In this document: piece by piece, positions 11,371 to 40,497 of the stretch | How positions within the stretch are numbered: the stretch's first letter is position 1 | How the letters are laid out: the number at the start of each line of letters is the position of its first letter | NCBI GenBank assembly: GCA_002712005.1 | Contig: PASP01000004.1 | Span: forward strand, 435,485-499,484 | Length of the DNA: 64,000 bases | DNA from: Halobacteriovoraceae bacterium | GTDB taxonomy: Bacteria; Bdellovibrionota; Bacteriovoracia; Bacteriovoracales; Bacteriovoracaceae | Direction: 5' to 3' | Notes under the pieces: generated by a model | The model's input: the letters and a program-made list of their open reading frames with translations, nothing else | What the model was told of the DNA's origin: nothing | Database searches by the model: none | Made by a program: the position numbers and the translations under genes

Positions 11371-12585
11371 TTATTCGTCAAACATACCAGCTTTAGAACT
11401 TCCCTTTGTCTCAAAAGCAATATCTTGATCATCATCATCACCGTCTTCTAGATCTTCGTATGATTCTTCATCAGCATCAATATCCATTTCTTTTAGGATA
11501 GCAAAGAATGACTTCTCATCTGTCAGATCAGAGATAACAGACTCAACAAATTTAACGGGATACTTCTCAATCAAGTTCTCGATTAGATCTTGAAGCTGTC
11601 CTTCTTCAAGCATTTTTTGTTTCTTTTTAATATCTTTCCAATCAGCAATATAGTGGTATCGGCAATAACCTTTGGTTGTCGCTGGGTTTTCACAATTACG
11701 ATACATACATTCATCAGAATCAGAGGTGTAGAACTCAAGAGTTCTAAGGGCCTGAAAGATCTCTTTTAGAGAATATTCTTCTGCTAAGTCAGAAATACCA
11801 TCAGATAATTTTTCTTTAGTCTCAGAAGCCACATCTTTTTTCTGCTTTTTCGTCAGCTTGGCCACTTCGGCTTCAACTTCAGCTTCAAAGTCAAAACTTC
11901 CCTGAGAATCTTTCATTTTTGGTGAATCTGATTTGTCCATTTTCTTCTTACTTGTAGGTGTAGAAGCATTCTTTTCGACAGATTCAGCTTTATTCTTAGT
12001 AGTTTTTTTAGCTGCTTTAGGTGCAGTAGATTTTGTTGTTTTCTTGGCCACCTCTTGAGCTGCCTTGGTCGTCTTTTTGGCGACTTTCGCGGCTGCTTTA
12101 GTGGTTTTCTTTGCTGTTTTCTTAGCGGCTTTAGTTGTCTTCTTGGTTACTTTCTTAGCGGCTTTAGTGGTTTTCTTTGCCGTTTTTTTGGCTACTTTCT
12201 TAGCTGCTTTGGTGGTTTTCTTTGCTACTTTCTTTGCCGTTTTTTTGGCCGTTTTTTTGGCTGCCTTTTTAACAACCTTTTTCGTGGTTTTTTTGGAAGC
12301 TTTGGGAGCGTTTTTCTTTACAGCTTTCTTAGCAGCTTTCTTAGCGGTTTTCTTGGCTGCCTTTTTTGCAGTTTTCTTGGCCGTTTTCTTCGCAGTCTTC
12401 TTAGTTGTCTTTTTAGCCGTTTTTTTGGTCACTTTCTTTGCTGTTTTCTTAGCTGTCTTTTTAGCCGTTTTCTTTGTAGCTTTCTTAGCCGTTTTCTTAG
12501 CTGCCTTCTTCGTTGTTTTCTTAGCAACCTTCTTCTTTACTGTTGTCTTCTTCTTCGCTTTCTTAGCGGCTTTCTTCTTGGCCAT
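11371..12585 (-). CDS. Histone H1-like Lys/Ala-rich DNA-binding protein with acidic, Cys/His C-terminal domain
   Basis: About 404 residues. The N-terminal 200 or so are imperfect repeats of KKTAKK, KKAAKK and TTKAAKK, the pattern of the histone H1 tail and bacterial H1-like proteins, which bind and compact DNA without sequence preference. From about residue 225 the composition changes to a mixed and then acidic globular part. This includes a putative zinc site, C-x4-C ... YCRYHY (near residues 297-318), and ends in a strongly acidic tail (EDGDDDDQD). I start it at the ATG at 12585, with GGAG 8 nt upstream; a GTG 33 bp earlier is in frame. It is monocistronic, with its own terminator. Confidence 0.85.
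   Translation of the reverse strand: MAKKKAAKKAKKKTTVKKKVAKKTTKKAAKKTAKKATKKTAKKTAKKTAKKVTKKTAKKTTKKTAKKTAKKTAKKAAKKTAKKAAKKAVKKNAPKASKKTTKKVVKKAAKKTAKKTAKKVAKKTTKAAKKVAKKTAKKTTKAAKKVTKKTTKAAKKTAKKTTKAAAKVAKKTTKAAQEVAKKTTKSTAPKAAKKTTKNKAESVEKNASTPTSKKKMDKSDSPKMKDSQGSFDFEAEVEAEVAKLTKKQKKDVASETKEKLSDGISDLAEEYSLKEIFQALRTLEFYTSDSDECMYRNCENPATTKGYCRYHYIADWKDIKKKQKMLEEGQLQDLIENLIEKYPVKFVESVISDLTDEKSFFAILKEMDIDADEESYEDLEDGDDDDQDIAFETKGSSKAGMFDE
12005..12570. repeat. Low-complexity tandem coding repeat of the H1-like gene
   Basis: DNA repeats based on a 12- to 15-bp unit such as GCCGTTTTCTTAGC recur with small changes, encoding the K-x-A-K-K series on the minus strand. This region is prone to length change by slippage and also creates two long meaningless antisense frames. 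Confidence 0.8.
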
Positions 12586-12735
12586 ACCAACTTTCTCCAG
12601 TATTTTTTTTAAAACCACGGTTTCACCTTTGATGCTAACCCATCAAAAACTGACTAAAACTACCAATTTTTATTGGTAACACTTCTTTTATCCCTAGGCA
12701 AATAGAATGCTTGTGAAAGAGTGTTTCCACGGCCT

Positions 12736-36229: not shown

Positions 36230-37753
36230 TTAGAGATCGTCTAAAAACTTATCAGCAGCAGCAAAAATCTTTTCCTTACGTTCTTTATCCATTTTCTTTA
36301 AGGTGTTGGCCGCAAACCCCATACGTGGATTTGAGCTATAGAAATCGATATTGTCAGAAATAAATTTCCAGTAGAGTCCATCCCATACTTCACACCAAGG
36401 TCCTTTCTTGTAATGAGACATCTTCAAAATATAATTTGATCCACTTACATAGGGCTTTGTCGCAAAAATTCCCCCATCACTAAATTGACCCATTCCATAA
36501 ACATTTGGACCCATCACCCAATCTGAAGAATCGACATAAAGTTCCATGAACCAGCGATGAACCTCTTTAGGATCGATTTTGCATAGGAGCATAAAATTAG
36601 AGAGGATCATAAGGCGCTCAATATGATGGGAAAATCCAAGCCTCACGACTTTCTTAATGGCATCATCTACAGGGGGAACGCCTAAGCTTCCTTCATACCA
36701 TTTTGGAGAGAGCTTTCTCTTATGGTTAAAGAAATTACTCTTTTCCTGTTTTTCACTATAGTTTTGATAAATTCCTCTTACAAATTCTCGCCATCCAATG
36801 AGCTGGCGAATAAATCCCTCAACACTATTAAGAGGGGCTTTATTCTTTTTATATGCTTCTAAAACCGCTTCAACCACTTCATCAGGGGTCAATAGTCCCA
36901 TATTAATCATTGGGGATAGAGCGCTATGAAAGAGAAAGTCAGTGTTATCTGAAATAGCATCTTGATAGGCGCCAAAATTTTCAAGTCTATGATCGATGAA
37001 GTCTTTTAACCACTCCAAAGATTCAGACCGAGTCGTTGGTAACCAAAACTCATCGCTATCGCCGGGATGATCTGCAAATAGCTTGTCCGTGAGTTCCATT
37101 ACATCTGTCACATTCTTACCTCTTTTAGTTTGGGTAAGAGGACTAATGACAGGAACGTCTAAATTTTTTGGCATCTTCTTGCGATTACTAGAATCGTAGC
37201 TCCATTTACCTCCCAGCGGTTTTCCCTCTTTAGTAAGTAGAATATTCAAATCTTTACGCTGTCTCTGATAGAAGGTTGCCATAAATGGAGACTTCACATC
37301 ATTGAGATAATTCTCAAAGCTTTCCCTCTCCGTAAGAAAAAGAGGACTTTTCAAAAAGTGGACTTCAATATCTCTATCTTCAAAAAAAGAGGTGAACTCT
37401 TTTTCGAAGAACTTATCTTCGATTTCGTGTACATAAACAGAATCGTATTGACCAACTTCTTCCAAAGTCTGCGTAAGCTTATTCCAAAAAGTTGCTTCCT
37501 TTGCTTTCTCTTCTTCAAGACTCCAATAGTGAACTTTGTAATCGTGTTTCCTTAGGTAATCTCGATAATTTCTCATAGCAGCGAGAAAGAGAATAATCTT
37601 AAATTTATGATACTTAAAATGGGTGCATAGCCCAGAATCTTCGGCCATAAAGAAATCGACCCCCGAAGAGAGAAGATCTCTAGGATAATGCTGTAAAAGA
37701 AAGAGCTGATTGCCTAATGTGATGAAAAGTTTTTTATTCTTTGTTTGAGTCAT
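36230..37753 (-). CDS. FeS-BCP/PhrB-type (6-4) photolyase-related protein lacking Fe-S cysteines
   Basis: 507 residues of the deoxyribodipyrimidine photolyase-related family (PF04244-like, prokaryotic (6-4) photolyases). It shows ITLGNQL at the start, LIGWREFVRGIY near 318-329, SHHIERLMILSNF near 375-387 (with the catalytic His pair) and GPNVYGMGQFSDGG near 415-428, so FAD binding and repair residues look intact. Family members have four Cys for a 4Fe-4S cluster, the last three in YC-x2-C ... CP. Here that stretch is HYKKGPWCEVW with only Cys454, and the first Cys position is also lost. It is in the same direction as, and 11 bp from, the next photolyase gene. Confidence 0.85.
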   Translation of the reverse strand: MTQTKNKKLFITLGNQLFLLQHYPRDLLSSGVDFFMAEDSGLCTHFKYHKFKIILFLAAMRNYRDYLRKHDYKVHYWSLEEEKAKEATFWNKLTQTLEEVGQYDSVYVHEIEDKFFEKEFTSFFEDRDIEVHFLKSPLFLTERESFENYLNDVKSPFMATFYQRQRKDLNILLTKEGKPLGGKWSYDSSNRKKMPKNLDVPVISPLTQTKRGKNVTDVMELTDKLFADHPGDSDEFWLPTTRSESLEWLKDFIDHRLENFGAYQDAISDNTDFLFHSALSPMINMGLLTPDEVVEAVLEAYKKNKAPLNSVEGFIRQLIGWREFVRGIYQNYSEKQEKSNFFNHKRKLSPKWYEGSLGVPPVDDAIKKVVRLGFSHHIERLMILSNFMLLCKIDPKEVHRWFMELYVDSSDWVMGPNVYGMGQFSDGGIFATKPYVSGSNYILKMSHYKKGPWCEVWDGLYWKFISDNIDFYSSNPRMGFAANTLKKMDKERKEKIFAAADKFLDDL

Positions 37754-37764
37754 ATAATTTTCTC

Positions 37765-39234
37765 TTATCTCTGTGTACGTTTTGAATTTCTTGCTTTTGA
37801 ATATTTGCGAAGAATTTGAGGAGCATTCTTTTTTGAATGCTCAGAGTTTTTGAGTTGCCATAACTTTTCACGGGCCATGGCCGCTGATTTCTCTAGATTT
37901 ACTATAGGCAATGGATAGTCAGTACCTATCCTGATATCATACATCTGTTCTTCAAAAGATGTTATCTCCCATGGATTGTGGATAAGCTCTCTTGGAAGAT
38001 TCCTTAACTCTGGGACCCATTTTTTTATAAACTCACCATCTCTATCTTTTTGTTGAGATTGTTTTACGGGATTATAAATTCTTAATGTATTAACCCCTGT
38101 AGTACCTGCCTGCATTTGAAACTGAGCATAGTGAATCCCAGGTTCATAATCTAAGAACTGTCTTGAAAGATAGCGAGCTCCTTCCCTCCAAGGTTGCCAG
38201 AGATGGTGGGTTAAAAATGAAGTCACCATGGCCCTCATTCTAAAGTTTAAATATCCTGTCTCTTTTACACATCTCATCGATGCATCGACTAAAGGAAAGC
38301 CAGTAAGCCCCTCTTTCCATGCCTTGAAATATTTCTTATTCTTCTTGGTTCTAATTCCATCAAATGCCGAATTTATATTCTTTTTTTCAATAGAAACATC
38401 CGTTTCAAGCTTTTGAATAAAGTGGGCCTGCCATTTTAATCTCGCCATAAATTGCTTTAAAGACTCTTTGTTGGTGACAATTCTCTGTGCCTCATCACAA
38501 GCTTGATAGATATGCCTAATTGAGATATTTCCCCAAGCTATATAAGGAGACAAACGTGAACAGTGATAAGATGCTTTATCGGGGTAACTCATTTGAGAAA
38601 AATACTGCTCAACCTTTTCTTGCAGAAATTGATGAAGAAGACTCTTGGCCTTACTCTCTCCGCCTACTTGCTTAAGACTGTTCACTTTGCTTAATTGACT
38701 TTCTAGTTCATCAGGTAGGAATTCATTTGCTTTCTCGTCTAAAAAAATCGCTTTATCCCAAGAAGGATCATTTTGGGAATCCTTCATAAACTTGATCCAC
38801 TGAGCGTCCCATCCCACTCTTTCTCTTAATCCACGTACTACGCCATTTGCCTGAAATTCTTTCCAATTCGAACCCTTTTCTGTAATGAGTTTTTTTATAT
38901 GAAGATCTCTAGCAAAAGTATGGGCCAAGCCCGTTTCATTATAAGAGTAGACATGTTTAATATTAAACTCTTCCAACAGGCTTTCGAATACAGTTTCAGC
39001 TTCAGCATAATAGATTTGTATCGGTATTTTTTGAGACAATTCTTTTAAGGACTGATAAATAAAGCGCCAGTGTCGGATATCAAAATCATAATAGTTTTCA
39101 ATCAATGGTTCGAATATATAAATGATCTTAAAAGGTAACTTCTCTTCACATGCTTTTTCAAAAGGAGCATGATCGAAGGACCTGAGATCCCTCTTAAGCC
39201 AGACTAAGTTAATCTCTTTAGCGAATTTATCCAT
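37765..39234 (-). CDS. Cryptochrome/DNA photolyase family protein
   Basis: 489 residues, full length. The N-terminal antenna domain starts NLVWLKRDLRSFDHAPF; the C-terminal FAD domain has FMARLKWQAHFIQKLE, GFPLVDASMRCVKETGYLN, RMRAMVTSFLTHHLWQPW and RIYNPVKQSQQKDRDGEF. It belongs to class I-like enzymes, which use blue light to split cyclobutane dimers, or acts as a light sensor. The usual TGTDAAPYFR segment is changed to TTGVNTLR, so the substrate is uncertain. It shares an operon with the FeS-BCP-like gene and is divergent from the third photolyase-like gene. Confidence 0.88.
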   Translation of the reverse strand: MDKFAKEINLVWLKRDLRSFDHAPFEKACEEKLPFKIIYIFEPLIENYYDFDIRHWRFIYQSLKELSQKIPIQIYYAEAETVFESLLEEFNIKHVYSYNETGLAHTFARDLHIKKLITEKGSNWKEFQANGVVRGLRERVGWDAQWIKFMKDSQNDPSWDKAIFLDEKANEFLPDELESQLSKVNSLKQVGGESKAKSLLHQFLQEKVEQYFSQMSYPDKASYHCSRLSPYIAWGNISIRHIYQACDEAQRIVTNKESLKQFMARLKWQAHFIQKLETDVSIEKKNINSAFDGIRTKKNKKYFKAWKEGLTGFPLVDASMRCVKETGYLNFRMRAMVTSFLTHHLWQPWREGARYLSRQFLDYEPGIHYAQFQMQAGTTGVNTLRIYNPVKQSQQKDRDGEFIKKWVPELRNLPRELIHNPWEITSFEEQMYDIRIGTDYPLPIVNLEKSAAMAREKLWQLKNSEHSKKNAPQILRKYSKARNSKRTQR

Positions 39235-39366: not shown

Positions 39367-40497
39367 ATGCAAAAAAAAACTTATACAAATATCATTATTC
39401 ACAAAAACTTCTTGCAGGCGTTTGTCTTCATCAATACTCATCTAAGAGAGTATTCTCAAGGCCTTCTTAGGCTCTACTTTTTTAAAGATGACTTCGCTCC
39501 TTACTCAAAAAGAGTTAAAGCTTATCGTGACCAAATATTTAAAGACTACTTTTCTTCTTATCTAAATGATTTTCAAATCATTGAAGGGCGAAGAAATTTA
39601 GAAAGTATAAATTTTGAAGGAACGACTCATCTCTTCACTTTAGATGCTTTTTATGAAAGAAATCTTTTTCTAAAACTAAAAACTCCTTCTAAGTTTATCC
39701 ACATTTCTTCCTATCTTCTCAGTCAACTCGATAAAGAAACAAAAATTGTCTTATCTTCCAAACAGCAATTCCCCCCTTTTAAGAACTTATACGAATCTCA
39801 ACTTCCTCAATCCTATAACACCCCCTTTCTTCCTCCCAAGAATATTCAATCTCTACAAAAAGTTGCCAAATATTTTAAAGGGGAATACCCATCTCATTAT
39901 TTTGAAACACGTAATCAGCTCATCAAAAATGATAAAAATGATTTCTTCTCCACTCATTTCTCAGACCTCTTAGCTTGGGGTTTAATAGATGTCAGATATC
40001 TCTATAATCTCGTGCGAAATTATGAGAAAACTAAGCATAAGAATAAGTCTACTTATTGGCATATCTTCGAATTTCTTTGGCGTGATTTTTTCTACTGGCT
40101 CTACAAAGATCAAGGGGCTTCTCTCTATTCTAAAAATGGTCTCAAAGGAGAACCCTCTTTCTTTAAGCAAGAAGATTTCGATGAGAAATTACTCGCTTTT
40201 GAACATCCCTTTATGAAAGCTTCATTTAATGAACTATCTGAAACAGGATATCTTTCAAACCGAACAAGGCAACTCTTTGCGAGTTATTGGATTAATGAAT
40301 TAGATAGACCTTGGTGGCAGGGTGCACTCTTATTTGAGCGCTACTTGATAGACTATGATCCCTACTCTAACTATGGAAACTGGATGTACCTTGGTGGAAA
40401 GGGAGTTGACCCAAGAGGAAAGCGCCATTTTCATTTAGAGAATCAACTGGAACGATACGATCCCGAAAATAAATATATTCGCCATTGGAACAATTAG
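39367..40497 (+). CDS. Short DASH-like cryptochrome with reduced antenna domain
   Basis: 376 residues. The second half is clearly a cryptochrome/photolyase FAD domain of the DASH type: FEFLWRDFFYWLYKDQG, NELSETGYLSNRTRQ, RPWWQGALLFERYLIDYDP, SNYGNWMYLGGKGVDPRG and ERYDPENKYIRHW. The N-terminal part of about 165 residues lacks the W-x-R-x-D-L-R start and is shorter than usual, so antenna-cofactor binding is doubtful. It ends just after RHW, lacking the normal P-E-L tail. AGG lies 8 nt before the ATG. Confidence 0.8.
   Translation: MQKKTYTNIIIHKNFLQAFVFINTHLREYSQGLLRLYFFKDDFAPYSKRVKAYRDQIFKDYFSSYLNDFQIIEGRRNLESINFEGTTHLFTLDAFYERNLFLKLKTPSKFIHISSYLLSQLDKETKIVLSSKQQFPPFKNLYESQLPQSYNTPFLPPKNIQSLQKVAKYFKGEYPSHYFETRNQLIKNDKNDFFSTHFSDLLAWGLIDVRYLYNLVRNYEKTKHKNKSTYWHIFEFLWRDFFYWLYKDQGASLYSKNGLKGEPSFFKQEDFDEKLLAFEHPFMKASFNELSETGYLSNRTRQLFASYWINELDRPWWQGALLFERYLIDYDPYSNYGNWMYLGGKGVDPRGKRHFHLENQLERYDPENKYIRHWNN

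Follow-up and report, generated by a model that had tools for sequence, protein, structure and literature searches.

In the window analyzed here, a stretch of 64,000 nucleotides from the genome of a Halobacteriovoraceae bacterium (assembly GCA_002712005.1, contig PASP01000004.1, positions 435,485 to 499,484), we examined a gene, P0001, whose product resembles PhrB, the (6-4) photolyase of Agrobacterium fabrum, over its whole fold but lacks all four cysteines that hold the 4Fe-4S cluster of PhrB. The gene and the parts of its product that bear on this difference are the following:

36230..37753, minus strand: P0001, cluster-free prokaryotic (6-4) photolyase-like gene, an intact open reading frame of 507 amino acids (phmmer match to PhrB in PDB with E of about 1e-80; predicted-fold match to 4dja).
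37043..37720, minus strand: N-terminal DPRP domain (PF04244), residues 12-237 (Pfam E 2.2e-56).
36527..36799, minus strand: flavin adenine dinucleotide (FAD)-binding domain match (PF03441), residues 319-409 (Pfam E 4.6e-08, above the cut-off).
36671..36673, minus strand: P361, at the position of PhrB ligand C350 (alignments; proline in 155 of 183 sequences).
36377..36415, minus strand: shortened loop, residues 447-459 (HYKKGPWCEVWDG), replacing the PhrB stretch C438-x2-C441...C454, with E455 at the C454 position and C454 at the A453 position (loop lengths, alignment).
36623..36628, minus strand: H376-H377, equivalent to H365-H366 of PhrB, where H366 is essential for (6-4) repair (PMC4619345); histidine in 170 of 170 aligned cluster-free sequences.
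36431..36451, minus strand: stretch containing Y435 and Y441, the counterparts of PhrB Y424, which binds the lesion, and Y430 (PMC4619345); kept in 169 and 170 of 170 cluster-free sequences, respectively.
36551..36553, minus strand: W401, equivalent to the electron-transfer tryptophan W390 of PhrB (PMC4619345); tryptophan in 166 of 170 cluster-free sequences.
36695..36700, minus strand: W352-Y353, with Y353 at the position of the distal electron-transfer tryptophan W342 of PhrB; tyrosine in 160 of 167 cluster-free members.

The DPRP and photolyase FAD domains are present over the full length of the protein, as is characteristic of prokaryotic (6-4) photolyases, and Pfam gave no match in P0001 to PF00875, the N-terminal domain that marks class I/III cyclobutane pyrimidine dimer (CPD) photolyases and cry-DASH. 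The best PDB matches were PhrB itself (5kcm/4dja) and its mutants (E of about 1e-80, residues 40-504), followed by the cluster-containing (6-4) photolyases of Synechococcus, Rhodobacter, Caulobacter and Vibrio. A preliminary description of this gene, made from the DNA alone, had taken it to encode a PhrB-type protein without a cluster site; the phmmer and MAFFT alignments with PhrB and its homologues bear this out, and the open reading frame, its coordinates and the peptide HYKKGPWCEVW stand as given there. In these alignments, the PhrB ligands C350, C438, C441 and C454 correspond to P361, to positions within the deleted part of the loop and to E455, so the cysteine quartet that defines the FeS-BCP (iron-sulfur bacterial cryptochromes and photolyases) subtype is missing altogether. 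The same description held that only Cys454 remains, which is misleading: the protein contains three cysteines (43, 391 and 454), and Cys454 aligns with Ala453 of PhrB, one position off the ligand with which it shares a number by coincidence, and hence is not a surviving ligand. The loop consists of 13 residues in 161 of the 167 full-length cluster-free members, compared to 23 in PhrB. Neither chance nor a sequencing error can account for the joint absence of all four ligands together with the same 10-residue deletion in orthologs of only about 50% identity. We also considered, and rejected, the possibility of a pseudogene, given the intact reading frame and the existence of orthologs with about 55% identity; indeed, the frame is preserved in nearly every relative (46-57% identity), which indicates purifying selection.

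The absence of the cluster is not an anomaly of this one gene, as the preliminary description implied, but a published property of an entire clade. The gene is present in about 60 of the 129 genomes of the bacterial family to which the organism belongs, and all four cysteines are absent in each of the 59 aligned family sequences, that of the window included. A pattern scan of species genomes detected at least 588 relatives, and the best 80 of these, which were retained, include many Pelagibacteraceae, SAR86, Actinomarina, Woeseiaceae and Methylophilaceae, as well as a Phycisphaerae metagenome-assembled genome and Bdellovibrionota; another cluster-free member is encoded on a Bacteroidota plasmid (Persicobacter). 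The clade extends to SAR11, SAR86, Actinomarina, Woeseiaceae, Planctomycetota and Bacteroidota. The distribution of the cysteines is all-or-none: in an alignment of 183 sequences, 171 are devoid of cysteine at the four sites (a count in which the window gene enters twice, by way of a second locus, and one entry is a fragment without the cluster columns), 12 have all four, and there are no partial cases. A phage search returned only distant class I-like matches, and two relatives were found on viral contigs, one with and one without the cysteines. The sequence L154:3929-5347, on a contig filed as viral, is a divergent cluster-free member with 37% identity and a loop of intermediate length.

Within the clade, cysteine is frequent at positions 43 (146/167), 391 (109/167) and 454 (139/167), so one could envisage that Cys43, Cys391 and Cys454 join with non-cysteine ligands in a non-homologous site for a metal or cluster, the outcome that would have overturned the preliminary description. 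The three cysteines, however, are not co-conserved: they occur together in only 85 of the 167 full-length members, three of which have just two cysteines overall. Furthermore, Cys43 belongs to the N-terminal domain, Cys391 and Cys454 belong to the helical domain, and the three that the window protein has cannot alone stand in for four ligands, which makes an alternative four-ligand site unlikely by sequence; we regard a site completed by other residues as extremely improbable.

In a phylogenetic tree computed with the cluster-bearing columns excluded, from a sample without the Prochlorococcus protein PromaPL (see below) and rooted on class I-like photolyases, 47 cluster-free sequences comprised a single clade with 100/99 support. 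This clade was nested among sequences that contain the cluster, with L156, a member of the same phylum that has all four cysteines, as its neighbor, which favors a single loss. The rooted tree makes loss of the cluster, as claimed in the preliminary description, the likelier scenario without proving it: a topology in which the cluster-containing sequences are all grouped falls short by only 6 log units (approximately unbiased test, p = 0.24), and the branch to the outgroup is very long, so the direction, loss versus primary absence, is not established. Conceivably, the cluster-free branch retains a pre-cluster state, in which case it would use a tyrosine-terminated electron-transfer chain; where the first ligand site of the clade reads WYxGxTGxP, the neighboring class I-like gene P0002 has WKxGxTGxP, a likeness that can be read as either ancestral or convergent. 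We consider a primary absence unlikely; if correct, it would challenge the view of iron-sulfur photolyases as ancestral.

Structure prediction, which the preliminary description had proposed as a check, yielded a confident PhrB-like fold without the cluster. The AlphaFold model, for which the window protein was combined with 36 relatives, reaches a mean predicted local distance difference test score of 94.1 and a predicted template modeling score of 0.93, with local scores of 95-98 in the region of the missing cluster (blocks 441-470), and superimposes on PhrB 4dja with a Z score of 50.6 and a root-mean-square deviation of 1.9 A over 492 residues. No cluster-free member was recognized among the solved structures that were found. 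The cysteine mutants of PhrB are insoluble or not expressed (PMC4619345), so the cluster-free clade must compensate in some way, probably through its shorter loop and the proline that takes the place of the first ligand.

The residues implicated in catalysis are retained. Nearly every cluster-free member has the equivalents of PhrB H365, H366, L370, M410, Y424, Y430, D179, D254 and W390, in agreement with the preliminary claim that the flavin and HH elements are kept (H376-H377 for H365-H366); in particular, the catalytic His366 and the lesion-binding Tyr424 and Tyr430, which are diagnostic of this family, correspond to H377, Y435 and Y441, all invariant or nearly so. In PhrB, replacement of H366 abolishes repair, lesion binding is lost in the Y424F mutant, repair is reduced in Y430F, and electrons are carried by W342 and W390 (PMC4619345); the data on functional residues and on the Mg-site aspartates D179 and D254 come from PMC4619345 and PMC12082625. 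At the W342 position, the clade has tyrosine, with a nearly invariant tryptophan just before it. Tyrosine is also found there in two cluster-containing sequences, L156 among them, so the replacement does not go hand in hand with a missing cluster. The change in electron transfer anticipated in the preliminary description does not follow from the missing cluster as such, because direct transfer between the cluster and the flavin has been argued to be negligible (PMC12082625). The apparent conservation of the antenna residue E37 of PhrB was dropped from consideration since the N-terminal part of PhrB is incomplete and shifted in the alignment. The genome contains no above-cut-off match to CofH, the enzyme of 8-hydroxy-5-deazaflavin (8-HDF) synthesis, which argues weakly against an 8-HDF antenna.

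From the sequence, its conservation, the clade and the predicted fold, we infer, with a probability of roughly 0.8, that P0001 encodes a functional cluster-free prokaryotic (6-4) photolyase of the subgroup M/PromaPL type, with a shorter packed loop in place of a structural cluster. Under this scenario, FAD would be photoreduced via an aromatic chain that includes W401 and terminates in the W352-Y353 pair; the excited reduced FAD would then donate an electron to the (6-4) photoproduct held by Y435 and Y441, with H377 as the proton donor and D187 and D265 available for Mg2+. The well-packed loop, shorter by 10 residues, and the proline at the first ligand position would replace the 4Fe-4S cluster, on which PhrB depends to fold and stay soluble, and free the fold of the need for iron. 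Several points weigh against this conclusion: the tyrosine in place of the distal tryptophan could slow photoreduction, PromaPL is absent from the tree, no assay of the window protein or of a close relative was found in the literature, and cluster-free Phr2 proteins have been proposed to repair CPDs (PMC9426592). A light receptor or cryptochrome that employs the PhrB fold for signaling, without repair, would be compatible with the altered terminus of the electron-transfer chain, which could change photoreduction, and with the combined regulatory and repair roles of RsCryB, a member of the PhrB family (PMC9178010); nevertheless, the retention of the lesion-binding and catalytic residues and the second photolyase-family gene that adjoins in many members render such a role very unlikely.

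P0001 lies beside two further photolyase-family genes:

37765..39234, minus strand: P0002, second photolyase/cryptochrome gene, 489 amino acids, 11 bp from P0001 on the same strand (PF00875 and PF03441).
39367..40497, plus strand: P0003, third, divergent cryptochrome-DASH-like gene, 376 amino acids (TIGR02765, 215 bits, below its cut-off; PF03441; nearest solved structures CRY-DASH).

In about a dozen relatives, a homolog of P0002 lies immediately next to the cluster-free gene, and in several the two genes are adjacent in reverse order. In P0003, the DASH-family match starts only at residue 159, and the usual N-terminal antenna domain has no Pfam match. A fourth photolyase-family gene is located on another contig (C8). 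The existence of these genes bears on the possibility that the enzyme, in losing the cluster, switched its substrate, with cyclobutane dimers taking the place of (6-4) photoproducts. Such a switch has been suggested for picocyanobacterial Phr2, where CPD repair was deduced from how phr2 mutants survive UV-B exposure and from the absence of the cysteines (PMC9426592). The genome already encodes other photolyase-family proteins, including the one on contig C8, with a strong FAD_binding_7 match, and P0002, and the residues of P0001 appear to favor (6-4) repair, so we consider such a switch quite unlikely.

In the Pelagibacteraceae genome L063, the cluster-free gene is followed by a small CNIC-motif protein (L063:7472-7831) and, on the opposite strand, a photolyase-like open reading frame (L063:7945-9081), and on an Acinetobacter plasmid (L175:1816-2100), DUF2256 and TIGR03643 genes come after a four-cysteine member. 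Elsewhere in the window, the gene at 11371-12618 (minus strand), in DNA with strong AT skew and tandem repeats, encodes a protein that has no Pfam match, with a long, Lys/Ala-rich N-terminal part containing KKTAKK-type repeats, reminiscent of a histone H1 tail, and several cysteines in the C-terminal part.

Cluster-free relatives of PhrB are not without precedent, so the window protein is not a new kind of enzyme. Cysteines were found to be missing in 7% of 464 homologs (Graf et al. 2015, PMC4619345) and in several orthologs in a more recent study that called the function of the cluster elusive (PMC12082625, Journal of the American Chemical Society 2025). The role of the 4Fe-4S cluster being considered unknown (PMC12082625) and its removal making PhrB insoluble (PMC4619345), a large natural clade that folds without it offers a clean comparison: if its members repair (6-4) lesions equally well, the cluster is structural; if not, it matters for the reaction or the substrate. 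Compared to PhrB and other FeS-BCP proteins, the window protein is alike in the whole fold, the DPRP and FAD domains, and the equivalents of the HH pair, Tyr424/430, Asp179/254 and W390, but differs in the absence of the cluster cysteines, the loop shorter by 10 residues and the tyrosine at the distal W342 position. With the cysteine-lacking homologs of Graf et al., it shares the missing cysteines and the absence of tyrosine at PhrB position 443, whereas at position 460, where those homologs also lack tyrosine, it retains one (Y461). The 20 members of subgroup M (PMC9178010, Nucleic Acids Research 2022) come from multiple lineages and lack the four cysteines throughout, and one of them, PromaPL, is described as a (6-4) photolyase; the same authors proposed the name prokaryotic 6-4 photolyases for the entire group. 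The window protein fits the definition of this subgroup, a prokaryotic (6-4) photolyase without the four cysteines found in many lineages, and what is added here is a far larger sampling of the clade, its recovery as a single clade and the all-or-none pattern of the cysteines.
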